Shown here: piece by piece, positions 1,215 to 31,013 of the stretch
How positions within the stretch are numbered: position 1 is the first letter of the stretch
How the letters are laid out: each line of letters starts with the position of its first letter
IMG/VR virus record: IMGVR_UViG_3300025806_000083
Location: 1 to 35,951 of that record
Origin: a virus
Length of the DNA stretch: 35,951 bases
Reading direction: 5' to 3' (one strand)
Program-made: the position numbers and the translations under genes
The notes under the pieces: generated by a model
Database searches by the model: none
What the model saw: only the letters and a program-made list of their open reading frames with translations
Told to the model about the DNA's origin: nothing

Positions 1215-1492
1215 ATCAAACAGACGAAGTTAGCACCTGGATAGAAAGACAATCGAAGCCATGTAGTAATTGCAAAGAAGTGAAAAGCTTTTCAGAGTTT
1301 CATAAAAACAAAGTATGTCGAACTGGTAGGCATAGTTATTGTCGCAAGTGTAGAGGTATCCAGGGATCGCAAAGCCAATTAAATAAAGCTGCTGAGAATG
1401 GTGAAGATGTAAGAGAGTGTGAAGAGTGTGAGTTACTATTTAGATCAAAAAATTATAATAAGTGTCGCAATTGTAGGGGTAAAAATGTTTGA
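1211..1492 (+). CDS. double zinc-ribbon protein
   Basis: The protein has 93 residues and starts at GTG, overlapping the TGA of the VRR-NUC gene. Two CxxC/CxxC knuckle pairs are clear: C18/C21 with C44/C47, and C70/C73 with C85/C88. The first half (CSNCKEVKSFSEFHKNK, then HSYCRKC) resembles the zinc-binding N terminus of phage endonuclease VII and HNH proteins, but no HNH or EndoVII catalytic core follows. It is therefore likely to be a nucleic-acid or protein-binding adaptor, or the binding half of a lost nuclease. Translation coupling to the VRR-NUC gene suggests joint expression; direct cooperation with that nuclease is speculation. Confidence 0.75.
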   Translation: MNQTDEVSTWIERQSKPCSNCKEVKSFSEFHKNKVCRTGRHSYCRKCRGIQGSQSQLNKAAENGEDVRECEECELLFRSKNYNKCRNCRGKNV

Positions 1493-1568
1493 AATTATAA
1501 TCTTATCAATAGCACTATTGGCAAGCAATGTTTTGGCAATAGCTTTTATCAAAGGAGCAAACAGATGA
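1485..1568 (+). CDS. very small membrane protein (27 aa)
   Basis: ATG 1485 lies inside the last codons of the zinc-ribbon gene, and the TGA at 1566-1568 overlaps the next ATG as ATGA. The product is almost entirely one hydrophobic helix (MFEIIILSIALLASNVLAIA) followed by FIKGANR, so a single-pass membrane peptide. The positive charges at the C-terminal end would favour that end in the cytoplasm. Such peptides are often missed by gene callers. The overlaps on both sides support it. No function is recognised. Confidence 0.5.
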   Translation: MFEIIILSIALLASNVLAIAFIKGANR

Positions 1569-1732
1569 TTGAAAAAATAATTAAAGTATTAGAGGAAGTT
1601 GTTGATCGCAAGTCAAGGATGTGTGATGGATATAGTAAGTCGGATGATATTGGAGCTTGTTATCATGGCCAGGTTCATCCTGTTAAGGAAATGATAAAGT
1701 TTTTAGAAGAGATGGAGAAAAAAGATGAATAG
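1565..1732 (+). CDS. small hypothetical protein (55 aa)
   Basis: This gene starts at ATG 1565 in an ATGA overlap, with AAAGGAG (1552-1558) as a ribosome site. The product is acidic and helical at both ends (EKIIKVLEEVVDRK and KEMIKFLEEMEKK) with a middle part carrying C20, C32, Y33-H34 and H38, which could bind a metal. Its stop overlaps the next ATG. I do not recognise the family. Confidence 0.6.
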   Translation: MIEKIIKVLEEVVDRKSRMCDGYSKSDDIGACYHGQVHPVKEMIKFLEEMEKKDE

Positions 1733-1901
1733 TTTTTTATCCTTTGAGAGATCCAGAGAAGATGTATGTACGGTTGAGATGGAAACTGTAGAGTGTGCTG
1801 AATGTGATCGTGAGTTTCATAGGGAAGTAGGTTCAGAGTATATCATCTGTAGTAAAAAATGCTTAGACGATGCTAAGTTTGCTTTTAATGGCGAAGATTG
1901 A
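1725..1901 (+). CDS. small zinc-finger-like protein (58 aa)
   Basis: The start ATG overlaps the end of the preceding gene by eight bases, and GATGGAGAAAAA gives a GGAG ribosome site. The protein has C24xxC27 and C42xxxC46 separated by a short hairpin-like stretch (EFHREVGSEYIICSKK), typical of a four-cysteine zinc knuckle. Together with the zinc ribbon at 1211-1492 it makes two cysteine-rich small proteins in one coupled run. A role in binding nucleic acid or partner proteins is plausible but not shown. Confidence 0.6.
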   Translation: MNSFLSFERSREDVCTVEMETVECAECDREFHREVGSEYIICSKKCLDDAKFAFNGED

Positions 1902-3155: not shown

Positions 3156-3887
3156 ATGAAAGAACTTCCTTATAGAAAACACATTGTTGCTCTAGATCAA
3201 AGTGTCTTGATTATTAGCGACATGCATGCTCCGTATTCTCACCCCGATTGGTTTCCATTTTTAAAAGCCATCAAAGATAACTATAAACCAGAGATCATTA
3301 TCAACGTAGGTGATGAGTGTGACAAACATGCTGAAAGTTTCCATAACAGTGAGTCGTGCCTACCAAACTCGGATCAAGAATTAGACGATGCAATTTTAGA
3401 AATGCAAAGACTACATAGCTTATTCCCTAAGATGTATCTGGCCGAGAGTAACCACGGATCGATGACATACCGTAAGCTGAAGTCAGAGGGTATTTCGATA
3501 AGAAATTTAAAACCACTACATGAATTATATGAGACTCCACTATGGCAATGGCATCATGAGATAATGCTTGAGACTCACCAGGGTAAAGTTATAATTGTTC
3601 ATGGAAAGTCTGGAGCATATAACAAACTCGCTTCAGAGTTTGGTTGTAGTGCTGTACAAGGTCACTTCCATGCTAAGTTTGAAATTACCTGGCATCAATC
3701 GGCCCACTCAACTAGGTTCAATATGATAGTTGGTTGTCTTGTTGATCCTGTATCAATGGCATTCGCATATGGGAAGAACTTCCCAAAAAATCCAATACTA
3801 GGTGTCGGTTGGATAAATGAGTTAGGTGAACCAGCACTAATAAGAATGATGTTAGATAAGAATGGAAGATGGAATGGTAAACTATAA
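3156..3887 (+). CDS. calcineurin-like metallophosphoesterase
   Basis: This 243-residue protein carries the metal-binding motifs of the calcineurin-like superfamily in order: D22-M-H24 (DxH), G52-D53-E-x-x-D56 (GDxxD), S98-N99-H100 (GNH variant), then VHGKSG and GHFHAK (GH-x-H). The usual GN(H/D) glycine is replaced by serine, which is common in phage versions. Phage proteins of this size occur near replication or regulatory genes; substrates may be nucleic-acid ends, cyclic nucleotides or phosphoproteins and cannot be told from sequence. No Shine-Dalgarno precedes the ATG, and the -10 box lies only six bases away, so the mRNA may be leaderless. The end overlaps the next gene. Confidence 0.88.
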   Translation: MKELPYRKHIVALDQSVLIISDMHAPYSHPDWFPFLKAIKDNYKPEIIINVGDECDKHAESFHNSESCLPNSDQELDDAILEMQRLHSLFPKMYLAESNHGSMTYRKLKSEGISIRNLKPLHELYETPLWQWHHEIMLETHQGKVIIVHGKSGAYNKLASEFGCSAVQGHFHAKFEITWHQSAHSTRFNMIVGCLVDPVSMAFAYGKNFPKNPILGVGWINELGEPALIRMMLDKNGRWNGKL

Positions 3888-4302
3888 CATATCCATAAGA
3901 GAAGTAAAAAACCTTGATCCCATTATATTATTGAACGAACTAATTTTTCCAGAGGATGAACTAGATGTCGGACATAACACTTTTCATTGGCTTGCAAGAA
4001 ACAAGCATAATAACGAACCAATCGGTTTCTGTAGTGTTTCCGATTTTGGGGAGGGGATACTATTCCTATCTAGAGCTGGACTCTTACCAGAGTATCGTGG
4101 AAGAAATATTCAGAGAAGATTTATTCGTGTACGAGAAAAGTTTGCAATGCGTAACGGGTATCAAAAAATCATAACCTATACATTGAAAAATAATTATAAT
4201 AGTATTAGTTCCCTAATTAAATCTGATTATCATATCTATACTCCAGCTTATGAGTATGTTGGAAAAGAGTTTACTTATTTTATAAAGGATCTTTACCGAT
4301 GA
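3874..4302 (+). CDS. GNAT-family acyltransferase-like protein
   Basis: The product is about 142 residues. The frame also has an ATG at 3862, four codons earlier; I prefer 3874 because GGAAG lies five bases before it, but both overlap the phosphoesterase gene. The GNAT acetyl-CoA motif is seen in the middle: a strand (GEGILFLSRAGLLP) followed by EYRGRNIQRRFI, the Q/RxxGxG/A-type loop and helix. This is followed by a second core strand and helix (QKIITYTLKNNYNSISSLIKSDY). The fold is well supported; the target is unknown. Phage GNAT proteins can modify host proteins, toxins or their own products. It ends in an ATGA overlap with the next gene. Confidence 0.78.
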   Translation: MVNYNISIREVKNLDPIILLNELIFPEDELDVGHNTFHWLARNKHNNEPIGFCSVSDFGEGILFLSRAGLLPEYRGRNIQRRFIRVREKFAMRNGYQKIITYTLKNNYNSISSLIKSDYHIYTPAYEYVGKEFTYFIKDLYR

Positions 4303-4505
4303 AGTGCCAAGTTAAATTCTTTCCTATAAAATTTAACCCTGATCTGGAAGAAATAAAAAGACTCCAGGATATCCAGGACATGATAACACTCACTCACCAG
4401 AACATTAGAAGTGAAGCAAAGAATAAATATGACTATGTTGTAAGGACGCAAGCACTACATAAGAGAGTTCGCAATAGTTGGAAACTTATTGATGGTATTT
4501 TTTAA
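4299..4505 (+). CDS. hypothetical protein (68 aa)
   Basis: This small basic protein starts in an ATGA overlap with the GNAT gene, with AAAGGAT nine bases upstream. It is predicted helical from residue 14 on (DLEEIKRLQDIQDMITLTHQ and later basic helices) after a short N-terminal strand. It is the last plus-strand gene on this arm, and its TAA abuts the stop codon of the convergent late unit with no spacer. No family is recognised. Confidence 0.65.
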   Translation: MKCQVKFFPIKFNPDLEEIKRLQDIQDMITLTHQNIRSEAKNKYDYVVRTQALHKRVRNSWKLIDGIF

Positions 4506-4802
4506 TTATTTTTTACACTTTCTTTTAGATAACAAACAAAGATAATGGCCGTATTCCCTGGCTTCATAATATAACTTTAGCTTTTCAACATTTTCCTGGT
4601 CTTTTATAATTGTCAATTTGCTAGGTATAGCTACTATTTTACCATCACATGCCATCATGCCAAGTGTCGCACCGTCCTGGATAAGTGTAATACACTCGTT
4701 TATAACAGGTCTATTGAAGTAAAGTTCTGGTGTTCTATTCTCGCAAGATGCCAGGGTTATTAAGCTGCTGTAAAGTAACACTATGGGCAATAAGTTCTTC
4801 AT
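4506..4802 (-). CDS. lipoprotein, possible outer-membrane spanin subunit
   Basis: This 98-residue protein has a lipoprotein signal: MKNLLPIVLLYSSLITLASC with the acylated cysteine at position 20 (lipobox LASC). AAAGG lies nine bases before the ATG. The mature part is about 79 residues with cysteines near the middle and end. The gene starts 68 bases inside the preceding small membrane-protein gene in another frame, the arrangement of Rz/Rz1-type two-part spanins that fuse inner and outer membranes at lysis. It closes the late unit just after the endolysin region. It is not proline-rich like Rz1, so the spanin role is inference from context; other lipoprotein roles, such as superinfection exclusion, are possible. 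Confidence 0.6.
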   Translation of the reverse strand: MKNLLPIVLLYSSLITLASCENRTPELYFNRPVINECITLIQDGATLGMMACDGKIVAIPSKLTIIKDQENVEKLKLYYEAREYGHYLCLLSKRKCKK

Positions 4803-4989
4803 TTGTTTCGGCCTTTGATATTGCTAAAATTAAAGCATCTCTTTGGTTTTGTGTTGTCACTCGATGTCTATCTATTTTCTTTATCTTGTGGTCCAATAAT
4901 TTTTCACTTAATAAATTGATAAGATCAAAGACATAAGGAACGGCCTTTGCAATTGAAAATATTCCTGATGCAATGGCCGTTATTCCCAT
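4735..4989 (-). CDS. small membrane protein, possible inner-membrane spanin subunit
   Basis: The product has 84 residues with an N-terminal hydrophobic stretch (residues 2-28, ITAIASGIFSIAKAVPYV and FDLINLL) and a charged, helical remainder (LLDHKIKKIDRHRV, then a Q- and E-rich helix). One membrane anchor plus a soluble helix fits an i-spanin or a small holin. Its start shares one base with the stop of the upstream gene, and the lipoprotein gene begins within its 3' end. The nested pair is the main evidence for the spanin idea. No sequence family is recognised. Confidence 0.5.
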   Translation of the reverse strand: MGITAIASGIFSIAKAVPYVFDLINLLSEKLLDHKIKKIDRHRVTTQNQRDALILAISKAETNEELIAHSVTLQQLNNPGILRE

Positions 4990-5249
4990 TATGCTTGCTC
5001 GATTTCTTTACCAACTTCATAAAGCTTTTTAACGATCTCAAGTGCTTCAGCACCATCTAGATCTTTAACTTCATCAAGTGCTTCACTAGCACCTTTGAAT
5101 GCTTCAATCATACCGTTGATTTCGCTTAGTAAGCTAATAGCAACTGGCAAATCCAGAAGATCTACTTTGTTATCGGCCATAACTTTTTTTGCTGATACAC
5201 CGATCACTTCAATTTTTTCTAAGATTAGGATGATTTTATCAATATCCAT
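4989..5249 (-). CDS. small acidic helical protein of the lysis region
   Basis: The frame opens at 5261, but the ATG at 5249 has GGAGGG four bases upstream, so I use that start (86 residues). The protein is acidic and rich in I, L, V, A and E, with helix-forming repeats (VDLLDLPVAISLLSEINGMI, then ALDEVKDLDG). It has no clear membrane segment. It lies between the NlpC/P60 gene and the putative spanin pair, as do small conserved proteins in the lysis cassettes of related podoviruses. A lysis or superinfection role is only positional inference. Confidence 0.6.
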   Translation of the reverse strand: MDIDKIILILEKIEVIGVSAKKVMADNKVDLLDLPVAISLLSEINGMIEAFKGASEALDEVKDLDGAEALEIVKKLYEVGKEIEQA

Positions 5250-5265
5250 ATTACCCTCCATAGGT

Positions 5266-5700
5266 TTATATTGTCCTGTAAGGTATTTGTATTGAGGCTA
5301 TCAAGTCTCGTCTACTACTTACTGGCTTTATTCTAACTCTTGCATCTATTTTTGCAAGTTCTTCCTTGCTCATTTTTAAAGAATTACTTCCAGCTCCACC
5401 AGCTTCTATCATATAATGCTTACCTTCTAATAAGCCAAGTGATATTGCGGTGTGTGTCGCCTTTCCATTCTTACCAAAGAACAATATTGAATCGCACATA
5501 ACGTCACTGGATGCGTCACCATTCTTTTCGCAATACTCCATAAGTGAGTTAGCTGTCATATCTGGTAAAGTTAATCCTACATCATGTAGACTTTTTAAAA
5601 CAAATCCAGAACAATCAAGTCCATCATAGTTATTTCCACCCCACTTATAGGGCACATTTAGATATTGCATGGCCATTAGTGTTAGGAGTGTTGTGGTCAC
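5266..5700 (-). CDS. NlpC/P60 cysteine peptidase, likely endolysin
   Basis: This 144-residue protein starts at GTG, one base into the preceding stop codon, with GAGGGA upstream. It has the NlpC/P60 core: a YKWGGNNYDGLDCSGFV segment with nucleophile C30, then ATHTAIS with H83, and HYMIEAGG with E99 as the likely third polar residue. Members cut peptide bonds in peptidoglycan stems, usually gamma-D-Glu to diaminopimelate. There is no signal peptide or separate wall-binding domain, so release to the periplasm would need a holin. Its place among small membrane proteins supports an endolysin role. A virion-associated role is less likely because the tail genes lie upstream. Confidence 0.85.
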   Translation of the reverse strand: MTTTLLTLMAMQYLNVPYKWGGNNYDGLDCSGFVLKSLHDVGLTLPDMTANSLMEYCEKNGDASSDVMCDSILFFGKNGKATHTAISLGLLEGKHYMIEAGGAGSNSLKMSKEELAKIDARVRIKPVSSRRDLIASIQIPYRTI

Positions 5701-5996
5701 TATCTTCCCTCGTGCTTGCTTTGAAAATCTTCAACCAGGCTTAACATCTGCATCTGTCCACCTTCTAATGCATGTAATCTCTCTCTTACCTTGATTAGTT
5801 CTGTCTCGTTCTTGTGGTGTCGGTCTGAGTTAAGTCTACTTCTCTCTTCTGTCGCATCATGGTTAGCTATTAATACGGCCAACTTCAATTCAACATCTGA
5901 TATTTTCTCCAAGGTCTTTCTGGCAAAGAACGAGTTGATAACCAATAGCCCTGACATTATTGCTCCACCTATTGATACTATTATTTCTAATGCCAC
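5700..5996 (-). CDS. membrane-anchored coiled-coil protein (holin or spanin candidate)
   Basis: This 98-residue protein has one hydrophobic N-terminal segment (residues 3-23, LEIIVSIGGAIMSGLLVINSF) and a charged heptad-like helix (residues 28-95). It sits directly upstream of the NlpC/P60 gene and shares a base with it. Known small phage proteins with this build include i-spanins and single-pass holins. Because a second membrane protein overlaps the lipoprotein gene further down, I favour a holin or regulator role here, but the choice is open. Confidence 0.55.
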   Translation of the reverse strand: MALEIIVSIGGAIMSGLLVINSFFARKTLEKISDVELKLAVLIANHDATEERSRLNSDRHHKNETELIKVRERLHALEGGQMQMLSLVEDFQSKHEGR

Positions 5997-6005
5997 TATT
6001 ATTCC

Positions 6006-6758
6006 TTAGTTAGATGTTGGTACTTCCGTTATTGTTCCCCAGGAATCATTGGCCGTAATCGTAGTGTTAAAACCCCTACCACTACTTGCTTTGAATATAC
6101 CAGCCTGCCCAGAGGTCATATAGACTTGTGTACATCCATAAATATAAACAGGTCTGCTTCCTGTTTGCCAAATATAAATAGAACCACCTAATGTGTAAGA
6201 AGTCCCGGCCACTGTAAACCTATTCGAGACAATCAGAGGTGCAGTGAATGTAGCTGTAGCCCAAGTAACTGCCATACATACTCTATAAAATGCATCTCTC
6301 GGTGCAGTAAAAGTGTCTGTGCCAAGGTCAAAGTCTCCATTGGGATCAGAACTATCATTGACAACCTGAAAGTTAACTGTCGCTGCTGTAAAAGCTGGAA
6401 CTACCTGATTGGTTGTAACTGTAACCTCTAAGTGAGTTAGGTTATCACCGCCCCCAACCGCTGCCCATGTTGAACCGTTATGAGCTTCGAGCGATCCTGT
6501 GGTTGTATTCCATCTGATCATCCCACTTTCTGGTGTGCCAGGTCTAGCTCCTGTAGATCCTTTAGGGATAATCAAAGATGTAGATGTGTCCACTTTCATT
6601 GATCCTGTGCCGGACGGTGTGATCACTATGTCCTGGTTTGCAAAAACATCTGGTGTGCTTATACTTGTTAGTTTCACATTTGTCTGACTACTGTCTATCG
6701 CAATGGCATAAAAGGAAACAAGCGTTAAAATAAGTGCTAATAATTTCTTATAATTCAT
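6006..6758 (-). CDS. fibre-like protein with N-terminal signal peptide
   Basis: The frame is open from 6806, but the ATG at 6758 follows the stop of the upstream fibre gene and has AAGGA nine bases before it, so I choose it (250 residues). This start gives a classical signal peptide: MNYKK, a hydrophobic core (LLALILTLVSFY) and a likely cleavage site after AIA (residue 20). The mature part has a fibre-type segment (KGSTGARPGTPESGMIRWNT, TTGSLEAHNGSTWAAVGGG) then a C1q-like beta domain (residues 105-250, with FTAPRDAFYRV). Such C-terminal heads trimerise and bind surface ligands in fibre proteins. A signal peptide is unusual in a virion fibre and suggests export by the infected cell. Confidence 0.75.
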   Translation of the reverse strand: MNYKKLLALILTLVSFYAIAIDSSQTNVKLTSISTPDVFANQDIVITPSGTGSMKVDTSTSLIIPKGSTGARPGTPESGMIRWNTTTGSLEAHNGSTWAAVGGGDNLTHLEVTVTTNQVVPAFTAATVNFQVVNDSSDPNGDFDLGTDTFTAPRDAFYRVCMAVTWATATFTAPLIVSNRFTVAGTSYTLGGSIYIWQTGSRPVYIYGCTQVYMTSGQAGIFKASSGRGFNTTITANDSWGTITEVPTSN

Positions 6759-6759
6759 A

Positions 6760-7746
6760 TTAAAAATTCCTTGATGTTTCAATATAACGATCTTCTGTTG
6801 CGTCATATAAAAAATTGATTATATCATTGTTACCCAAAAATACACTTGCTCCGTTTATTAGACAACCACCAGTTATATCATTATTTGTTATTTCTAGTTG
6901 ATTTATATTGTCTGTGCCTATTAAAGAAACAAGAATGTTATTTCCTGGAGTAGTGCTAAAGGGAGTTGTGCTTGCTGTTTGTGTGCCAGCGTTGCCGGCT
7001 ACTCTACAAAATTGTATGTTTTCATCTGCTTCTAAAACTACTTGTCCACCACTAGAAACGCTCTGAACTGTTTTTATAAATGGAATGCCGGTTGTAGCCG
7101 CTGCTGCTATTGCTGCTGCCTCTGCTGCTGCCGCATTATTCTCACTTACAAGTGCTGCTGCTGCTGAAGCTGCGGCCGCTACTGCGTTACCACTTGCTGC
7201 TGTTATTTGTGAAGCTGAAGGCCCTACTACAAAACCATCTCCAGTGCCGTTAACTGCTATTGTTGCATCTGCTGTGCCAGCTAAATCAACTGGTAAAGTT
7301 GTGTCAAAGTCTGCTGATAAAACTGTGGTTGGTAACTTTATGCTTGCGTCTATCATTGCTTGTTGTTGTTGACTGATCATAACTGTTCTATCAAAAACAT
7401 CTTCAATGACCTCTGGAAAATATTGACCTTGATTTCTGATATCAGTTTCTTGTTGAAGATCTGCTATTCTTTTGATTGTTAACTTATATGTACTGTCTAA
7501 ATTGTTAGAAGTTCCTATCCATGCCTGACTATTATCAACTAAAGTGATAGTGCCGCCCGATGAATTTCCAACATTTGCTACTGTGTAATCTGTAGCTATT
7601 ATTAACTCAGTCTCGATTGATGTTGATATCTCTTTAACAACTAAAGTTAAATCATCTTCATCAAATATTTTATATGTATAGTTATAAGTACCTGTGGCAT
7701 CTGTGCCAGTGTAGTCATTCCTGTTCGTTAGTGATGATATTGTCAA
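6760..7746 (-). CDS. tail fibre with T7 gp17-like N-terminal domain
   Basis: This 328-residue protein starts at TTG (AAGGGGA six bases upstream). Residues 1-140 match the virion-attachment domain of the T7 tail-fibre family, including the YKLTIKRIADLQQETDIRNQ stretch and DVFDRTVM. Residues 183-217 are an alanine-rich heptad run likely to form a trimeric coiled coil. Residues 220-328 are a small beta-rich head with LYDATEDRYIETSRNF at the end. It lies straight after the giant internal protein, as gene 17 follows gene 16 in T7. At 328 residues it is shorter than T7 gp17 (553), so the receptor-binding part is small or is completed by another protein. Confidence 0.88.
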   Translation of the reverse strand: MTISSLTNRNDYTGTDATGTYNYTYKIFDEDDLTLVVKEISTSIETELIIATDYTVANVGNSSGGTITLVDNSQAWIGTSNNLDSTYKLTIKRIADLQQETDIRNQGQYFPEVIEDVFDRTVMISQQQQAMIDASIKLPTTVLSADFDTTLPVDLAGTADATIAVNGTGDGFVVGPSASQITAASGNAVAAAASAAAALVSENNAAAAEAAAIAAAATTGIPFIKTVQSVSSGGQVVLEADENIQFCRVAGNAGTQTASTTPFSTTPGNNILVSLIGTDNINQLEITNNDITGGCLINGASVFLGNNDIINFLYDATEDRYIETSRNF

Positions 7747-7800
7747 AGTATTCCCCTTATTGTTTTAATATATTCTATTATGTTTTTACCTTTTATAAAA

Positions 7801-10800
7801 CTACTTTACACCTTTTTTACCTGTCACTAATCCTCTAGTATAGTCAATTGGTCCTGTCGGTTGTGCTTCACCACTCTCAACTGCCATGACATATCTAAAA
7901 GGTTTAGACAATGGAGCTACCGGAAAACCTGTGACAACACTTATCACTGTCAATAACTCTCTAGACTTAACACGCTCCGTTATATCTTTGTCACTTCCAA
8001 AGTCTGGTATTGCATAGTCGGCTACACTAGCAACGGCCTCAAGGACTGGTGATGCACCTATCTTGTCATCGTAGAATTTTTCGTTACCCCTATTCATACC
8101 GGCTTGAATTGCTGGTCCAATTAACGGGAGCATACCTAGAAATAGCTCTGCTTGTGAAGCAATGAAAACATCGTATAGGTCATCCATATACATATCATCT
8201 TCATCTTCATCTAAACCACCCGCAGCGACTTTCCTCAACGCAGCACTCACGATTGCTATTGATGCGTATCCGGTTAAGTATGCATATAAAGCTTTACCTG
8301 TCTTTTCTTTTGCACTTAGATCTGAGTAGTATATCTTTTGCATATTTGTGGCATTCACATTGGCCATATTGTTAAAAAATCCCATAAACATCTGGATCAT
8401 TTTTAACATTGGATTTCCTTCCAGGTTTGATATGTCCAAAGGTCTGTTTCCATTTTGTGTTGTTCTTATAATTGAGTCTGCTAATCTAACTGAGTCCGAC
8501 TCACTCTTCCCACTCGCAACTGCCCTATCATATGCACCTATCCAAATAACCTCGTCCTGGAATGTTTGCAAAGCATTCTGAGTAATATAGGCATTATCTT
8601 GAGCAAAATCTCTCATAGTTAAGATCTTATTCTGTTCTTTAAATAAGTTATTTATTCTTTTGTTATTATCAAAGATTTCCATGTTAACTTTCTTTCGCAT
8701 GAAAGTGGACTTCTCATATATAGCTTCTCTAGTTTTCTTTCTATCCTTAAGAAGAGACATCGCACCGTGAGCTAAATCTTTTGCATCTATTCCATCCTTA
8801 GAAATTGCAACGGCCATATTTCCTAATTGCTCTACTGTATTTCTGATATGTCCAAAAAATAAAGCAGCACTTACATTTTTCCTAATGCTACCACCAATCT
8901 TCATGGCCAGGCCCATCCTGGTTGTCGGCACATCTGTAGTTTTATTTTTATCGGCCCTTATGATTGCTGGAATAATCATATTATCTATTAAAGATGGATC
9001 AATTTTATTCATCATCTCTTTAAAGCTATTACTGTTTACAAGTTTTGCTGCACTCGTAACTGCTGGCTTTACATGTGCAAATCTTATAACCTCGTCAATG
9101 TGTCTTGTGATAAGATCTATATTTAGGTTTAGAGCTTTGTTGTAGTTCTCAACCCTGCTTTTACCAAAACCATTTCCACCAGCTCCAGGAAGAGAAAAGC
9201 TAGGGCTACCCTCTACTATGTCCTGTAATGTATCTCTCTTACCAGCATCCGGCACAACATCGTAATCAACTTTAGCTGGAGCATAACCACCTTTATATTT
9301 CTTACCACTAGGCATTGTGATTTCATTTGTTGTGATCTCGCTGAAGTAATGGCCATAAACTTCTTTATGTGCCTTTTGAACCATTGGCTTTATCTCTTCA
9401 GTTATGTCCCAAATTTCTTGAACAAAGTCCATATGATCATCTGATATGATTCCCTCTGCATACATCCTCTGAATAAACTTATCCCACTTAGCGGTGTTTA
9501 AAGTTTTGTCATCATTTAGTGTCCCCCACTCTCTCCCGATTAAAAGCTTCTTAAAGTTAGAGTCGTTTCCTGTGTGAATCAATGCCCCTATTATCTCGCC
9601 TACATTTTCAAACTCATAACCCAACTCATCCGATTGAATTGCTTTAGGATCTTCTATACCTGGAACTTTCTCTTTAAGTCTCTCTGATGCGTCAATCATT
9701 TTCTTTGTATAGATATCACGATCTTCAAAGTATCTGTCTGTAGCCTCTGATAGTGGTGTAAAAATAGCCTTTCTAAAGATACCACCAATGTCACCCATAT
9801 CCATAAGTTCGATCCAATGCTCAAGTCTTCTCATCTTAGAAACTTGACTCATTATTTCTTCTTTGATCTTAGTAAACTTATCTTTTTTCTTTTCATACTT
9901 TCGCTTCGGAACTTCTTTTATGAAGCGACTTGCCGACTCATTCATCTGTTCAACAACTTTTTGAATATCAACTTTCTTTCCATCGATATCCATCTGCTTG
10001 CTTGTCTTAGATAAGTCCCACAATGTATCAAAGATATCATTTATCTCTGTGAATTGTTCAAGTGTTAGTTCTTTGTAACTTTGGTTTTCAATATCTACTG
10101 ACTCTATAATACTTGTAACCATTGCGTGAACATCCGGATCATATTTTCTGATCATATCCAGGTTGGCCATAACAACCTCTGGTTTAGATGCCAGGTCAAA
10201 TTTAGAAAGTATTGCCCTTGCTGCATTGATGAAAGTCATATCTCTAGTTTTAGAAAGTTTTGTGTCTGCTTGATTAAGCTTCTTAAATTTCTTTAGTTGT
10301 TTATTTTGTTTTTCTTTTATGTCTGAAGCTGATCTATAAAGCTCATGGCTTAGAAGCTCTCTTTGCTTTGCATCAAAGGCTTCGGCCCACTGGCCCTTAC
10401 TTATAAACTCTTCAACTTTCCTTGCTTCCCTTACTTCAGCTCTTTGATATAAGTACGGTCTGATTTTTTTCATCTGCATAGCACTTAATATTGTATTAGC
10501 TTCCTTTTTAATTTTCTCATTAGAAGGGATACGTCTAACTGTTTTTCTTGTGCCTTCTTTTAGGTTCGCCTGTTCAATGTCTGATAACAAAGAAAGTTCC
10601 ATTTTTAATAGCTCTGATCTTTTATCACTATGGATGAATCTTTTCGCAAGTCCTTCTATCCTGTCATCTGTTAACAATAGATCCTGGTTTTCTTGTCTCA
10701 TCCTATCTTCAGAGATTGCTTTTACTGCCTTGCTAAGCGGTGGTGCTTCGGCTATGCCATTGACCATTTTACCTACATCGGAAAATCCCATGATGCTTGC

Positions 10801-13800
10801 CACTACACTAGGGAGCATTCCACCGTTTGTTGTGTACATTGTGTTAGGTAACTTCTTTACAACTTCAGCTCCAAATAAGTTAACAAGATCACCCTTGTTC
10901 ATTCTTATTGGTTCACCGTCTATCGTTCCATTTTTAAAAATATCTAATGCTTTGTATACACCGTCTGACAATAACTCTTCTTCAACTTGAGCTTTTATCT
11001 CTTTACCTTTTTGGCTTGTAAATAACTCTTGCTCTTTCTTCCATGACTTCGCAAGGTTAATACTCATTTTATCTTTAGCTTCCTTGCTAAACAAGTCTCT
11101 TAATTCCTGGTATGTCTTAAGTTTATTTTTATCAACTTTACTTTCCATCTCTTTAGTTATGAGACTCTTAATTCCCTGTTCTTTAATTGCTGCATTTATC
11201 TCATCTTCAGTGGCAAGCATTCTGTCCATAAGACCTCTAACTTCATCTGTTAAAGGTGCATTTAAGTTTTTGATCTCTCTATATACAGTTATCAACCACG
11301 CTCTAAACCTGGAGAATGCTGTTTGTAGTTCCTTGGTCGGTGCTTTACCTTCCATAAGATAGGACTCAAAAGTTCTTGCAAATAACTCATGGTGTTTTGT
11401 TTCAATAGCGTTAAATGATTCAACTCCTAAATGAGTTAGAATAGCACTAACATCTTCCATAAACTTCTGCTGTACTTCGGTCCTATTACTTCCTTGAGCA
11501 ACTATAAAGTTGTAGTCTTCCCTCATCTCTTCCAGGAATAAATGTCCTGTTTCATGTAGGAATGTTGAAGGATCTGCTTTTGCTAATAAGTCGATTCTAA
11601 AAAAGTCTTTACCTACACTTATCTGGCCCTTAGGATCTTGTTTGCCACCTTGGAATAAAATCTTTTCTGCTTGTGAGTCTGTATAATTCTCAGTAACTTC
11701 CTGTCTATTATCATCGTTATATTCTACGATATCTAAACCTAAGCCTTTAAGTATCTTTTTAGTTTCGTCACTTGTATTTTCTGGAATGATTGCAGCTTGG
11801 AACTCGTCTATATCTACTGCCCTTTGAACTTTAGACTCAAAGTATTCTGTCTCCATATTCTTAAGCTTGTCCAGGAAGTCCACGACTTCTTGTTTCGTTT
11901 CATCTGATAAGTTATAGTATTGGTCCAGTGAATTGATATTTGTTTCGGCAACTTCTTTTAAGTGTTCAGAGAATAAATCAAGTGAACCCCAACCATCATA
12001 GTGCTTAACTTCAGCTTGTACTTTATCAAACAGGTCACCAAATTCTCTATCGATCTCTTCTTTGATAGCCTCGAACTCTTCCTTGGAAACAACCTTGTCC
12101 CTGTCTTTTCCCATTTCCTCTATAGACTTAAATTGCTTTGCAACTTTTGATCTAATGCTACCAACTCCATAATTGAAATTCTCACCATCTCTTAGTGATT
12201 TCTTCATCAACTTAACTACATTATCTAATGTATGAGGAATGTATCTAATTGCTCCAGTGTTCGGATTGGTATCTTTGAAGACCTTTTCTTTTATATCCAG
12301 TGTATCATATACATCTGAGGCATATTGGTCGAACTCTTCAGTGAGTGTTGGATCATCGAATATTTGTTTTTTAATATTAGTTTCGGTTTCTCTCTTATCT
12401 ATTTCCTGTGTATCATTGATAAGTCCCATATCTTCTTTAACTGAATATAAAACTCTATCAAGATAATGACCTCTAGGATCATCTAGTGCTTCCTGGATAT
12501 CTGAGATATCTTCCTGATCAACTTTGTTGCCTAGCTCATTTATATGAAACTCTTTGACTAGCTTTACGAACTCCTTATTTTGAGCGTCAAGCATTCCCTG
12601 TCCACCAAAGAATTTTTCAAAACCAGCTTCTCTATACGCTTCAACTTTTTCAGGTTCAATTGATTCATATGCAACAATTGGATCAATACCTTTACTTTCA
12701 AGGAATGCATACATCAAAGCTTTATCTTCCTGTAATGCTCTTAATCCACTTCCCTCTATTTTATTATAATCTGTACTGTCGTTAAAGATCTCTTCATTTA
12801 TACTACCAACTATATCTTCATATTTTTTTCTTCCAGCTTTAGGTATTGTGTAATCTATTGATGGATATCTAGGGCTATAAACATCTGCATTGAATGTCTT
12901 AGCTCCCTTTGTTTCTAACATGTCCGGTCTTGCTATTAGTGATATCTCTCCAAAGTTCTCTAGTGACTTACCTTTCTTTGTAACTGCTAACGATGGAACT
13001 GCGAGTCCACCAACTTTAAGTGCATGTTTTAAATTTCTCTCGCTTAAGTTATGTGTAACGAACAAGTCTTTTATTTCTTCTTTTGTTTTTTCTCCTGGAA
13101 CTGCTTTGTCTGCATCACTTGATTGACCTTCAATAAGAACCCACTCAGGAAGTAGCCCAACTTTTTGATCTGCAAAAGTAGTGTTAGCTGGATTTTCTCT
13201 ATTCTCTTTTCCTTTAGGACCATAGTTAACCCATGAGTTTTGCCCTCTGGTTTCCGTTGTCATTGCTCTGGCCGCTTTAGGTGAGTACATCCTAACGTGA
13301 GATTGCCATGCATTCTCTTCGCCTCTAGGACCAAAACTAGATCCTTCTTTGTAATGTCCAAAGTAATCGTGAACTATTCTAAAAAGATCATTTGCAGCTA
13401 ATTGATAACCGTCTATTGACTCATCTGTTTGTTGTAACAATGGATTATCCTGGACTTGATCACTTGATCCAAAACCTTGCTCTGTCGGGAAAAACCACAA
13501 GTGGCCATTGTCTAGATCTTTGAACATATCTTGTGATCCATTAGGATACGGATTTTCCATATCTGCTGTAATCATTTCAATTTTAAGTCCGGTATTTTTG
13601 ATTGACTGGTATTGTGCCAAAGTCTCATCGATCATGGCCTGGTATGCTTCTTTTACTTCCTGGTTTTCAGGATCATGCTTCATCTCTTCAAAGGCTTTTG
13701 ATATTCTTTTAGCTCTTTGAACATTCACTTTTACATATTCTGATTGTTGTCTTTCTTCAATTCCTGCTTCTTTGAGGTATTCTCTTGCGACTTGTCTTGC

Positions 13801-16800
13801 TTCTTGGTTGTGTTTGATGCCTTTTGGTTTTCCCTCAAGCTCTGTTGTGATCTCTGGAATCGCAAGTTCATTCTCTCTTTGTCCAGTTTCTCTTCCTTCA
13901 TTGTTATTGTCCTTGTTAATTAGTTTATCTGAGTATGCAATAAAGTACCTTTCTGAGTCACCAAAGGTTTCTTTTATAAACTTGTCTGGTGTTACAAGTG
14001 TTGCTCCATATATTCCCTTACTGTCCAGGAATTGAGATGCTTCCTTGTCACCACCCAACTCTTTAGAAACTGCTTTATATAATTCGTTACCAGTCTTTAC
14101 ACCTTTATATGACTTTGCAATTTCCTTTATTATATCACCCTGTTCACTAATTTTTTTATCTAAATCAAGAATAGGTAAATTTTCCACGTTTAAATCAACT
14201 TCTTTAACTGTGCCTTCAGTATCCTTAACCTGGTCCATTGACTTGCGATCGCCAACTTTCTGTGGACTTCTCGCTACTCTCATCTTTCTGTACATGTCTG
14301 CTATGGCTTTGTTTGCAGCAAAATATACACCATAACCATGTCTTGTGTTTTCTGCTTTATCAAAATCAAAGGTCTTAAAGTCTTCTTTAGTCCCGTGGTA
14401 TGCTGATTGAAATAAATCAAAATCGCTGGCCTTATCTTCTTGAATGCCTAGTAATGCCTTGAATGTCTGATCTGGTTCAACTTGTCCTGAGTGTATATTC
14501 TCATAACCGTTTTTAAGTCTTTCAATTGCTACTGTTCTGATTCTCTTATAAACTGCACCTTTTTTAGATAGTGCTGTCTTGCCAAAAGATTGCTTGTTCT
14601 TGGCTTGAACTTCTCTGTACCATTTAGGGAAAGTACTTTGTTGCATATCAACAATTGGTGCTCCACCTGTCTCCGCTTCAGTAAAGATCTTGTTACCTTT
14701 TTCTGATTGTGATATCTCATATATCATCTGTTCGACTTCAGTATCAATGGCCTGTTCTGCTAAAGTTAAAGCTTCACCTTGTAATTGCTCAACCTTTAAT
14801 TCTTTGATGCCGGCTTTCTTATTATTCTCTTCTTTTAGTTTCTTGTTTTTCAGGATCTCGTCATATGTAGTGTTATCTCTAACTACTTGCTGCCCTGTCT
14901 TTCTGATCTCAAGGTTTTGCTCCCTGAATAGCTCTAAAGGATCTTTACCTCTGAGTATTGCTCTGGTCTTGATTCTTCCTTCATATAGGTTAGCTTGTAG
15001 CTCCGCATCTTTGTCATTCATTCCAGCTAATTTTAATTGATCTTTAACTCTAGATTTTACTTCTTTTGCTGATTGAATAAACTCATCATCCTGCAATTTT
15101 GCTACTTGTTCGGATAATTGTTTCATAACCGATGGCAACTCATTCATGGTTTTATTTGCTTGATTTAAGTTCATGCCATCTGATCTAGTTTTAACTGAAT
15201 TTAAAAGACCATCTGCGTCATCTGTCTTTGCAATTGTTTCAGCATAGTCACCAATTGGAATCTCAATATCTGATCCAAGGGCACTCGCCTCTGCATATGA
15301 TTTTCCAACTTCGTCACTGATCTCGTATGCCTTAGCTAGTGGACTTTCACCTTTTGAGTTCCAGAAATTATTAAAATCATCCACCTGGAAATAAACCGAA
15401 CTTGATTCACCTTCATCATTAGCACTCTCTACTAAGTTTCTTATAGCGTCTTGAGCTTCACTTGTGTTCTTAGCTTCTTTTATAGCAATACTTAAGTCAT
15501 TGACCGCTTGTATTTCCTGGATCGATTCTATGGCATTCTGAGCATCATTAACAACGTCCTCTGCTGACTTAATTGGATCGTCTATAAATTCTTGTCTTAT
15601 TTTGCTCGCTGCACCAATGGCAACATCGTTTATTGAACTACCTAGTGAAGTCGTCCCTTCCTGGATTGCTTGACCGATTGATACACCTTTCAGGCTTTTC
15701 TCTTTTGCAACTTGACCTACAAATTCACCGATACCTTCTCCGGCCATATCTGCAATTACATCTTTAGTTCCAGCTTTTACAAGGGCCGTTTTTCCAACTG
15801 CTTTTCCAGTTTCTTTTGCTGCCTTCTTAACTCCAGCTAATGCCTTACCAGCGAACATGTTAAATATGCCGTCAACCGCTGCTGTACCGATACCCTTTCT
15901 TTGTGCCCTTTCTATGACTGTCTGCATATACTCTTTGTTATTAAGCATCTTCTCAACTGCAATTGGATCTGTTAAATCAACCCCACGCTCCGCAAGATCC
16001 TCTGATATTGCTCCACCGATCTCTGTTAAGACTGATCCTGCAAAAGTTCCAACTCCAAAACCAATCGCTCCACCAATAGCTGTACCCTTTACTGGCACAA
16101 CTGATCCTGCAATTGCCCCTGCCTTCATACCAGCGAAACCAGTGATTATAGAAGGAAAAGAATTGGCCAATGACTCTGTAGATGAATAGACAAGTCCTTT
16201 CGGTCTTATAACTGCTGATCCAACTAGCTCTAGTGTTTCACCAACTGTCTTAGCTCCACCGGCCGCAAAGTCTGTTAAGGCATCAATAATGTTACCTTTC
16301 CTTAACTCTTCATATGATCCTTTAAATTGTTCAAAGGCTTCATCAATATCTTTAACATCACTTGCCATTTCTTTGTCGAACTCTTTTGAAAACTCTGGCT
16401 TTTGACCTTTTAACTCTTGTGCTCTCTTAGCATTGCTTGATATGTTCTGTGCTATATCTTTATTATTTCCAACCCCATATGCTGACATAACAAATTGAGC
16501 TGAAGTATTTAACTGATTCCAACCTGTATAAAGTGCTGAGTCTAATTGTTTTGTGAACCTTTCATCTTTCTTATTTTTTCTTATTTTAAATGCGGCCCTT
16601 TCAACTCTCTTAAGTGGTTCTATTTCTTTCTGTGCGATTGCTGCGTGATCTGGATTTTCTAACCACTTTGATAAACCTGGATTAATCTTCAATAGTTCAT
16701 CATACTGAAAAGAGTCTTCCTTTTCTTTGGCTTTAAATTGGTCTAGGTTTTTATCTACAATATTAGATGGAAGGTTATTCTTTTTAGATATATTAAATAC

Positions 16801-16980
16801 GTCTTTACTTCTTAAAGGATCTTTAGTTGATGCAAGCTTTATCGTTTCTTTGACCACGTTTTTCTGATCACCTAACATGCCATCGACTACATCATCATAT
16901 TCATTGACTGGCCCTTCTTGTTGTTCTGGTTCGTTTCCAGTTATTACTTCATCATACTCGTTATAACCGTTATCTTCCAT
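7801..16980 (-). CDS. giant internal virion protein with polyvalent enzyme modules (3059 aa)
   Basis: The ATG has GGAAGGAA upstream. Visible parts in order: an acidic N terminus; a Gly/Ala-rich hydrophobic segment (about 275-325); charged helices; an ADP-ribosyltransferase-like module with Y861-H-G-T and G882-Y-G-V-Y-F-A; a module with H1204-D-Y-F-G-H and a TTETRGQNSW motif; a segment starting T1309-H-N-L-S-E; a metallopeptidase-like motif H1809-E-T-G-H1813; long helices; and a C-terminal 650 residues like the ends of large podovirus internal proteins (LPD38-like), with membrane-prone stretches. By position it equals T7 gp16, which is ejected to form a DNA conduit. No lytic transglycosylase motif was seen. 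Enzyme modules in the particle suggest delivery of effectors to the host; that is inference. Confidence 0.85.
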   Translation of the reverse strand: MEDNGYNEYDEVITGNEPEQQEGPVNEYDDVVDGMLGDQKNVVKETIKLASTKDPLRSKDVFNISKKNNLPSNIVDKNLDQFKAKEKEDSFQYDELLKINPGLSKWLENPDHAAIAQKEIEPLKRVERAAFKIRKNKKDERFTKQLDSALYTGWNQLNTSAQFVMSAYGVGNNKDIAQNISSNAKRAQELKGQKPEFSKEFDKEMASDVKDIDEAFEQFKGSYEELRKGNIIDALTDFAAGGAKTVGETLELVGSAVIRPKGLVYSSTESLANSFPSIITGFAGMKAGAIAGSVVPVKGTAIGGAIGFGVGTFAGSVLTEIGGAISEDLAERGVDLTDPIAVEKMLNNKEYMQTVIERAQRKGIGTAAVDGIFNMFAGKALAGVKKAAKETGKAVGKTALVKAGTKDVIADMAGEGIGEFVGQVAKEKSLKGVSIGQAIQEGTTSLGSSINDVAIGAASKIRQEFIDDPIKSAEDVVNDAQNAIESIQEIQAVNDLSIAIKEAKNTSEAQDAIRNLVESANDEGESSSVYFQVDDFNNFWNSKGESPLAKAYEISDEVGKSYAEASALGSDIEIPIGDYAETIAKTDDADGLLNSVKTRSDGMNLNQANKTMNELPSVMKQLSEQVAKLQDDEFIQSAKEVKSRVKDQLKLAGMNDKDAELQANLYEGRIKTRAILRGKDPLELFREQNLEIRKTGQQVVRDNTTYDEILKNKKLKEENNKKAGIKELKVEQLQGEALTLAEQAIDTEVEQMIYEISQSEKGNKIFTEAETGGAPIVDMQQSTFPKWYREVQAKNKQSFGKTALSKKGAVYKRIRTVAIERLKNGYENIHSGQVEPDQTFKALLGIQEDKASDFDLFQSAYHGTKEDFKTFDFDKAENTRHGYGVYFAANKAIADMYRKMRVARSPQKVGDRKSMDQVKDTEGTVKEVDLNVENLPILDLDKKISEQGDIIKEIAKSYKGVKTGNELYKAVSKELGGDKEASQFLDSKGIYGATLVTPDKFIKETFGDSERYFIAYSDKLINKDNNNEGRETGQRENELAIPEITTELEGKPKGIKHNQEARQVAREYLKEAGIEERQQSEYVKVNVQRAKRISKAFEEMKHDPENQEVKEAYQAMIDETLAQYQSIKNTGLKIEMITADMENPYPNGSQDMFKDLDNGHLWFFPTEQGFGSSDQVQDNPLLQQTDESIDGYQLAANDLFRIVHDYFGHYKEGSSFGPRGEENAWQSHVRMYSPKAARAMTTETRGQNSWVNYGPKGKENRENPANTTFADQKVGLLPEWVLIEGQSSDADKAVPGEKTKEEIKDLFVTHNLSERNLKHALKVGGLAVPSLAVTKKGKSLENFGEISLIARPDMLETKGAKTFNADVYSPRYPSIDYTIPKAGRKKYEDIVGSINEEIFNDSTDYNKIEGSGLRALQEDKALMYAFLESKGIDPIVAYESIEPEKVEAYREAGFEKFFGGQGMLDAQNKEFVKLVKEFHINELGNKVDQEDISDIQEALDDPRGHYLDRVLYSVKEDMGLINDTQEIDKRETETNIKKQIFDDPTLTEEFDQYASDVYDTLDIKEKVFKDTNPNTGAIRYIPHTLDNVVKLMKKSLRDGENFNYGVGSIRSKVAKQFKSIEEMGKDRDKVVSKEEFEAIKEEIDREFGDLFDKVQAEVKHYDGWGSLDLFSEHLKEVAETNINSLDQYYNLSDETKQEVVDFLDKLKNMETEYFESKVQRAVDIDEFQAAIIPENTSDETKKILKGLGLDIVEYNDDNRQEVTENYTDSQAEKILFQGGKQDPKGQISVGKDFFRIDLLAKADPSTFLHETGHLFLEEMREDYNFIVAQGSNRTEVQQKFMEDVSAILTHLGVESFNAIETKHHELFARTFESYLMEGKAPTKELQTAFSRFRAWLITVYREIKNLNAPLTDEVRGLMDRMLATEDEINAAIKEQGIKSLITKEMESKVDKNKLKTYQELRDLFSKEAKDKMSINLAKSWKKEQELFTSQKGKEIKAQVEEELLSDGVYKALDIFKNGTIDGEPIRMNKGDLVNLFGAEVVKKLPNTMYTTNGGMLPSVVASIMGFSDVGKMVNGIAEAPPLSKAVKAISEDRMRQENQDLLLTDDRIEGLAKRFIHSDKRSELLKMELSLLSDIEQANLKEGTRKTVRRIPSNEKIKKEANTILSAMQMKKIRPYLYQRAEVREARKVEEFISKGQWAEAFDAKQRELLSHELYRSASDIKEKQNKQLKKFKKLNQADTKLSKTRDMTFINAARAILSKFDLASKPEVVMANLDMIRKYDPDVHAMVTSIIESVDIENQSYKELTLEQFTEINDIFDTLWDLSKTSKQMDIDGKKVDIQKVVEQMNESASRFIKEVPKRKYEKKKDKFTKIKEEIMSQVSKMRRLEHWIELMDMGDIGGIFRKAIFTPLSEATDRYFEDRDIYTKKMIDASERLKEKVPGIEDPKAIQSDELGYEFENVGEIIGALIHTGNDSNFKKLLIGREWGTLNDDKTLNTAKWDKFIQRMYAEGIISDDHMDFVQEIWDITEEIKPMVQKAHKEVYGHYFSEITTNEITMPSGKKYKGGYAPAKVDYDVVPDAGKRDTLQDIVEGSPSFSLPGAGGNGFGKSRVENYNKALNLNIDLITRHIDEVIRFAHVKPAVTSAAKLVNSNSFKEMMNKIDPSLIDNMIIPAIIRADKNKTTDVPTTRMGLAMKIGGSIRKNVSAALFFGHIRNTVEQLGNMAVAISKDGIDAKDLAHGAMSLLKDRKKTREAIYEKSTFMRKKVNMEIFDNNKRINNLFKEQNKILTMRDFAQDNAYITQNALQTFQDEVIWIGAYDRAVASGKSESDSVRLADSIIRTTQNGNRPLDISNLEGNPMLKMIQMFMGFFNNMANVNATNMQKIYYSDLSAKEKTGKALYAYLTGYASIAIVSAALRKVAAGGLDEDEDDMYMDDLYDVFIASQAELFLGMLPLIGPAIQAGMNRGNEKFYDDKIGASPVLEAVASVADYAIPDFGSDKDITERVKSRELLTVISVVTGFPVAPLSKPFRYVMAVESGEAQPTGPIDYTRGLVTGKKGVK

Positions 16981-29939: not shown

Positions 29940-31013
29940 TTAAGATATCTTAGTTATTTTAACCTGTGCGTAAATAGTATTAACTGAAAAGTTCGCACTT
30001 AATCCATAACCAAATGATCCGGCACTTGTTTGACATCTGTGCTGAAACTCATAAACTTTAGTTGATGCAACTGTTACAACTCCGGTGCATCTACTCATAG
30101 TCCCTGCGTTGGAAGCTGATCCTGAGTATTCCGATGAGCCTAGTATTTCTGTTACCGTATCTGTTATGTTTTCAAATCTTGTTTGATGGCCATTAACATT
30201 GGCCGCTGGTGCTGTTGCTTCTATATGATAAGTTCCGGCCGTTAAAGTTATCTGGTTAGATGATAATGAGACTGATCCTGTTGCACCTGTTAAAGTGTTT
30301 AGATCTCTAGTTCTCCATGCACCATTATTAAATGTACCACCAAAAGAAGCAGCGGTTTTAACATCCTTCAAATAAGTAACCTCGACTGTACTACCACCGG
30401 CTGCTGGATCTTGCCACGTTGCTGCTGTCCCTGATGTCGCTGTTAGTATCTGTCCTGTGGTCGGAGCTGTAGCCGCTGAAACATCGATAACTGTAGTCGC
30501 TGAGTTTAGAGCATCTGTAGTCCCTGAGTTTCCTGTGACATCTGTTTGATCGCCTGTATTTGTCCCTGACTGATTACCTAGTAAAGTTTTCTCCGCATCT
30601 GTGAAGGCATTGGTGTTTGCTTCTAATTCATACGCAACTTTGATTTCCGCACCTGTCTGATCTGCTGTGGCACTTGCTTCTATACCGTCTAACTTGCTTG
30701 CATCTGTCGCTAAGTTTCTTGTGTTAAGTGTGCCTACTCCACTCATATTACCAGAGTCATCAATGATAACTGCTGAGTCCTGAATTAACTTCCCTGTTAC
30801 TGTGTCATACCTTGCAACTGCATTATCTGTCGCAACTGCTGGCCCTACTACGTCACCAGAACCACCACCACCGCCACCTGTACCATACTCGGTATCAACT
30901 CCGGCATCATCTAGTGAGTGAAGTTTCTTTGTAGTTGAATCTACATATAAAGCTGTACTACCACTTTCTGGAGTAGTTGGTGCGGTGTCGTTCTTAATTG
31001 TTATCTTGCTCAT
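29940..31013 (-). CDS. fibre-like appendage protein with C-terminal beta head
   Basis: The 357-residue product starts with a repeat-like hairpin (DTAPTTPESGSTALYVDSTT, then KKLHSLDDAG) and a glycine linker. A fibre shaft follows, with the often-seen GDVVGPAVATDNAVARYDTV module and NLATDASKLDGIEASATADQ. The last 140 residues form a C1q-like beta domain (LTAGTYHIEATAPAANVNGH onwards). AGGAG lies six bases before ATG. It is encoded just upstream of the large terminase, far from the T7-like fibre. It could be a second receptor-binding fibre or a head fibre. Confidence 0.8.
   Translation of the reverse strand: MSKITIKNDTAPTTPESGSTALYVDSTTKKLHSLDDAGVDTEYGTGGGGGGSGDVVGPAVATDNAVARYDTVTGKLIQDSAVIIDDSGNMSGVGTLNTRNLATDASKLDGIEASATADQTGAEIKVAYELEANTNAFTDAEKTLLGNQSGTNTGDQTDVTGNSGTTDALNSATTVIDVSAATAPTTGQILTATSGTAATWQDPAAGGSTVEVTYLKDVKTAASFGGTFNNGAWRTRDLNTLTGATGSVSLSSNQITLTAGTYHIEATAPAANVNGHQTRFENITDTVTEILGSSEYSGSASNAGTMSRCTGVVTVASTKVYEFQHRCQTSAGSFGYGLSANFSVNTIYAQVKITKIS

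Follow-up and report, generated by a model that had tools for sequence, protein, structure and literature searches.

Phage proteins of the fibre type are normally classed as parts of the virion, and tailed phages assemble in the cytoplasm. The window, a 35,951-base IMG/VR record, encodes a fibre-like protein, P0001, that appears to begin with a secretion signal. This raises the question of whether P0001 is exported and, if so, what an exported fibre-like protein might do for a phage.

A selected leader in front of a C1q-type head

P0001 is encoded by a minus-strand open reading frame (6758..6006) of 250 amino acids plus stop. A Shine-Dalgarno sequence, AAGGA (6768..6772, minus strand), lies 9 nt 5' of ATG 6758, and a single base separates this ATG from the stop codon of the preceding fibre gene. 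No comparable signal precedes the alternative starts at 6782 and 6806. The core of this signal occurs in 21 of the 26 late genes of the phage, compared with 17% at random positions. The initial annotation had preferred ATG 6758 as the best-supported start, directly after the previous stop, and both points hold.

From this start, the protein begins with MNYKKLLALILTLVSFYAIA|IDSS (leader at 6699..6758, minus strand), in which an n-region with KK is followed by an uncharged h-region and a predicted AIA|ID cleavage site. The three parts of a Sec/SPase-I leader, i.e., a charged n-region, a hydrophobic h-region and an A-X-A site, are likewise present in the sister phage (contig L008/L131), which served as reference for identity and codon comparisons. 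Leaders were detected with a home-made heuristic that is conservative, recovering 6 of 9 well-known E. coli leaders. P0001 scored H=2.8; by comparison, when N-termini were sampled at random from the virion proteome of the phage, 167 of 200,000 passed. Among 198 genes of eight other phages, the eight that passed were Oac, spanins and further membrane proteins or lipoproteins, with no fibres.

In the codon comparison with the sister phage, constraint on P0001 was strongest in the leader. Residues 12-24 gave a dN of 0.03 and a dS of 1.05 (dN/dS about 0.03), while the remainder of the protein had ratios of about 0.2-0.3 (linker: dN 0.29, dS 1.54, ratio 0.19; head: dN 0.36, dS 1.22, ratio 0.30). 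A 12-nt in-frame expansion lengthens the leader of the sister phage by four residues while keeping both SFYAIAIDSSQT and the cleavage motif. At the nucleotide level, the two genes are 84% identical within the leader and 64-67% identical outside it, in a backbone where 19 other aligned segments share 88-99.5% identity. This pattern of a constrained leader and a divergent remainder suggests selection for the leader, and diversification or replacement of the head. A search of viral contigs with protein patterns retrieved no close homologue of P0001 except that of L008. Judged from these sequence features, P0001 is very probably exported via Sec.

The leader is followed by a linker of ~84 amino acids (residues 21-104, IPKGSTGARPGTPESGMIRWNTTTGSLEAHNGSTWAAVGGG; 6447..6698, minus strand) with matches in PHROG and INPHARED and in the Bacteroidota profile search described below. 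It consists mostly of a GxxxARPxxPxxGMIRWNT module, and residues ~38-105 match a module that is common in structural proteins of marine phages. The fast-evolving remainder (residues 105-250; 6009..6446, minus strand) forms the head, which was assigned by structure model, fold search and sister comparison. The model of the mature protein was weak (mean pLDDT 51, head 60-84). Nevertheless, Foldseek returned 293 PDB hits at E<=1e-3, with C1QTNF5, EDA, Cbln1 and ExsFA among the top matches, and the modelled head also matched viral C1q proteins. The head is thus predicted to adopt a jelly-roll C1q/TNF fold. By sequence, P0001 stayed under the cut-off of the Pfam C1q family (PF00386), and searches of Pfam, NCBIfam, PADLOC and PDB sequences gave no significant match. 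Cys161 and Cys209 of the head are conserved in the sister phage, and cysteine counts did not separate exported from cytoplasmic fibres. Of the fibre shaft and C1q-like head described initially, the head stands, while "shaft" was a generous term for a short linker made up mostly of a marine-phage module. The observation itself, a genuine secretion signal preceding a C1q-like head, was confirmed: the leader has three parts and is conserved in the sister phage, and the head has gC1q/TNF fold matches.

The fibre-lysis slot in this phage and in others

The virus is of a marine type and infects bacteria. It is a podovirus, with a portal protein 44% identical to those of phiV10-type phages. One nucleotide upstream of P0001 lies a tail-fibre gene (6760..7746, minus strand) with a T7/epsilon15-type N-terminal domain (phrog_1640, 1.7e-30) and no signal peptide. 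No N-terminal virion-attachment domain of the T7/epsilon15-like kind was found in P0001. The lysis region begins downstream with a small membrane/coiled-coil protein (5700..5996), followed by an NlpC/P60 endolysin (5266..5700), an i-spanin-like protein with an N-terminal hydrophobic segment (4735..4989) and an o-spanin-like lipoprotein with the lipobox LITLASC (4506..4802), all on the minus strand. The two spanin-like genes overlap, and together with the lipobox this indicates a host with an outer membrane. A second fibre-like gene (29940-31013) matches a tail-fibre PHROG and lacks a leader. It had been suggested that P0001 and the adjacent T7-like fibre exchanged domains, but BLASTP detected no match between the two; nor did the head show sequence similarity to the phage's own fibres, so that a ligand common to P0001 and these fibres is unsupported. 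Neither the window nor the ~4 kb added by the sister contig contained an integrase, and no tRNA genes were found. A search for the host with the P60 lysin over 84,980 species gave best matches of 37-40%; those inspected were chromosomal, with no prophage recognised.

To compare this position among phages, related loci were collected with the lysin as anchor, a sample that is biased because every locus came through the same lysin. In these loci, a fibre or tail gene is followed by a leader-bearing gene, a membrane gene and the lysin. The slot holds a 133-aa leader-bearing protein in L099 (2505-2906) and one of 253 aa in L103 (11869-12630). In L098 (3706-6624), a signal peptide (MRIISFLILFFLVAIPYGLTA|NPA) precedes a 972-aa fibre that ends in a Pfam C1q domain (29.8 bits); this is the sole long fibre-like gene of its tail region and starts <=4 nt from the preceding tail-region gene. 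L009 carries two small leader-bearing genes immediately upstream of its fibre. P0008 of L009 is, judged by eye, a candidate second case of a leader combined with C1q. Leader-bearing fibre-like genes also lie near the lysin of L106 (IMGVR_UViG_3300031551_000003), where three leader-bearing genes (679-2727, 3348-3830 and 3836-6106), two of them long and fibre-like, have membrane genes and a P60 lysin directly downstream. L103 further encodes a probable thermonuclease-like protein with its own signal peptide (MKILIIFLLPVLAWG|NCG; 1417-1815, minus strand), which brings the exported proteins of this phage to two or more.

The position between tail fibre and lysis cassette also serves envelope-directed functions in phages whose portal is related. 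The slot of phiV10 is occupied by oac, annotated as "functions in superinfection immunity", and the equivalent slot of Tyrion by an acyltransferase. Unlike P0001, these are enzymes (that of phiV10 modifies the O-antigen) encoded by a gene of their own on the opposite strand, rather than binding proteins from the late operon. The related pelagiphage HTVC034P has accessory fibre-like genes without leader after its fibre.

Collinear relatives and known systems

The initial annotation had called for a homology search to decide between phage and bacterial relatives. With known phage proteins, P0001 has no more than the linker module in common, and the collinear relatives found were bacterial secreted proteins. 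A two-sequence profile matched proteins in 14 of 395 Bacteroidota genomes; for two other phyla, the figures were 1 of 398 and 0 of 395. In one Bacteroidota genome the match reached E 1.4e-8. The phylum of G006 yielded one module-type match, and eight genomes searched singly gave none. The best Bacteroidota matches, proteins of 284-298 aa, have a leader, share the linker and module of P0001 and carry a C1q head. An hhalign comparison with five of the Bacteroidota proteins returned 96.3% probability over 138 columns with 32% identity. As in P0001, the proteins of L148, L149, L151 and L153 have, in the same order, a leader, an "NDVVV..SGNLGVG" linker, a "GGGAIRYN..LEYSDG..W" module and a "FNSSTGIFTAPRDGFY" C1q head. 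Judged from sequence, small secreted Bacteroidota C1q proteins are therefore the closest collinear relatives found. In L148, two such secreted C1q-domain genes stand in tandem (312-1227 and 1237-2089). Apparent N-terminal matches of P0001 to Microcystis and Nostoc phages were rejected as leaders, being in fact alanine-rich alignments in the middle of the proteins.

Bacteroidota rarely use Shine-Dalgarno sequences. In contrast to P0001, their C1q proteins are chromosomally encoded, while the genes of the window use such sequences. The strength of these signals argues against a Bacteroidota host, and the likeness therefore seems to stem less from recent transfer than from a secreted architecture that has long been shared.

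Two described systems resemble P0001 in part. In T5, llp adjoins the receptor-binding gene and its product blocks the receptor, and the Llp of BF23 has the same role with an unrelated sequence (PMC4728585). Like P0001, these proteins are phage-encoded and leader-bearing, with a gene beside a receptor-binding gene (P0001 follows the tail-fibre gene by 1 nt), and the slot is taken by unrelated sequences in different phages (PMC4728585; PMC9122224). Llp is a lipoprotein, whereas P0001 combines a C1q/TNF head with a fibre-type linker and has no lipobox, the cleavage region SFYAIA|IDSS containing no Cys; P0001 is thus not a member of the Llp family, and blocking is for P0001 a proposed role. The mosaic adhesive trimeric (MAT) fibres of Bdellovibrio bacteriovorus share with P0001 a signal peptide, phage-fibre-like modules and a TNF/C1q-like tip, and they have a beta-rich domain of ~130 aa right after the signal peptide (PMC10769870). 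They are typically ~1,000 aa long; the phage-encoded P0001, with 250 aa, has neither an S74 domain nor the ~130-aa domain, which by length could not fit between leader and head. The connection to Bdellovibrio raised in the initial annotation is conjectural, and an assignment as MAT fibre is, by this length test, not supported. Finally, virion tail fibres of marine phages with C1q-like tips share the linker module and head type, but have no signal peptide and possess virion-attachment domains or a position within baseplate genes.

Candidate roles of P0001

P0001 is a real, selected and very probably exported phage C1q-type protein and would belong among the phage proteins that act on the envelope. 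Considering that it has a leader and no attachment domain, and that its slot is envelope-directed in other phages, P0001 likely works outside the virion. The proposal of a surface adhesin, a receptor-blocking decoy or a host-type gene in the initial annotation was the right class of idea, given the bacterial secreted proteins found as collinear relatives. Our tentative choice within this class is that P0001 may be a Sec-exported C1q-type adhesin and no virion fibre, which masks the receptor used by its own phage, both on the cell and on debris. We infer the masking role from the analogy with Llp, the gene position and the diversification.

In such a scheme, P0001 would be translated late, from the tail-fibre/lysis operon, and its leader would be cut off at AIA|ID. 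The C1q head would bring three copies of the mature protein together, in the periplasm, at the outer surface or both, and would there bind an envelope structure, most likely the one used by the phage itself. The bound head could then mask this receptor from further virions and from progeny freed at lysis. P0001 would thereby act like the Llp of T5 and BF23, though it has a C1q fold and lacks a lipid anchor. An island of low identity in a conserved backbone would fit a protein that has to keep pace with a variable target in the envelope. Consistent with masking, the virion-attachment domain resides in the adjacent fibre and not in P0001, the second fibre-like gene of the phage has no leader, leader-bearing proteins occupy the slot in L098, L099 and L103, oac does so in phiV10 and an acyltransferase in Tyrion, and the collinear Bacteroidota proteins have leaders. 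On the other hand, P0001 lacks a lipobox and any other anchor to the outer membrane, and no route is known that would take it across this membrane. Expression from the late operon would leave little time for superinfection exclusion, yet would suit the shielding of progeny at lysis. The leader-bearing sole long fibre of L098 also means that such fibres could be parts of virions.

Alternatively, P0001 could be a captured host-type surface or secreted C1q adhesin that makes infected cells stick together, to a surface or to prey, so that progeny meet more hosts. The small secreted Bacteroidota proteins, as sole collinear relatives found, point in this direction, as do the MATs of Bdellovibrio, which are bacterial leader-bearing phage-fibre-like adhesins with TNF/C1q-like tips (PMC10769870). 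Yet the place of the gene in a late lytic operon, together with the lack of an integrase in the window and the added ~4 kb, makes a lasting benefit to the host cell unlikely, and the low identity to the bacterial proteins would imply an old capture or convergent domain shuffling. We regard this role as rather unlikely.

Slightly less likely still, in our view, P0001 might end up in the virion as a fibre, being exported or held in the membrane by its N terminus and joining virions at or after lysis, with the leader serving assembly. The best argument for this is the 972-aa L098 fibre, whose gene is the sole long fibre-like one of its tail region and lies close to the preceding gene; a linker module and heads of these kinds usually belong to structural proteins of virions, and leaderless accessory fibre-like genes follow the fibre in HTVC034P. 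Against it stand the cytoplasmic assembly of tailed phages, the strong purifying selection on the predicted cleavage site and the lack of the conserved virion-binding N-terminal domain of the neighbouring fibre, and not one of the 198 control phage genes was a fibre with a leader. Least of all do we favour an accidental leader, i.e., a chance hydrophobic N terminus or a wrong start on an ordinary cytoplasmic accessory fibre: the heuristic does pass a background of phage genes, mostly for membrane proteins, and starts at 6782 or 6806 would bury the hydrophobic segment, but the Shine-Dalgarno sequence serves 6758 alone, the leader has a low dN/dS and a frame-keeping expansion that preserves the cleavage motif, and leader-bearing proteins recur in the same slot.

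A selected leader, together with the recurrence of comparable genes at this position in unrelated phages, suggests that some fibre-type proteins act outside both cytoplasm and virion. If so, annotation pipelines misfile such proteins, which may be receptor-masking or adhesive factors, and phage fibres would be linked to secreted bacterial adhesins such as the Bdellovibrio MATs and the Bacteroidota C1q proteins. As a broader and rather doubtful conjecture, some tailed phages of diderm hosts might set the fibre-lysis slot aside for an "anti-receptor" protein that is exported and rapidly exchanged. In the present phage, this would be a soluble C1q-headed fibre mimic, coating the dying cell together with its debris and thereby sparing the progeny, a fibre-derived counterpart of the lipoprotein blockers.

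Two further observations concern the genome as a whole. At the position of an ejection protein, the window encodes a giant protein of 3059 aa (7801-16980, minus strand) with hardly any relative among viral contigs, the best being 21% identical across the C-terminal 700 aa. The two ends of the window's genome are linked by positions 5841-9989 of the sister contig L131, whose positions 9989-12276 match the window from 35951 to 33058. This suggests that about 4 kb with genes for an SSB, a helicase-like protein and a YqaJ-like exonuclease are absent from the window.
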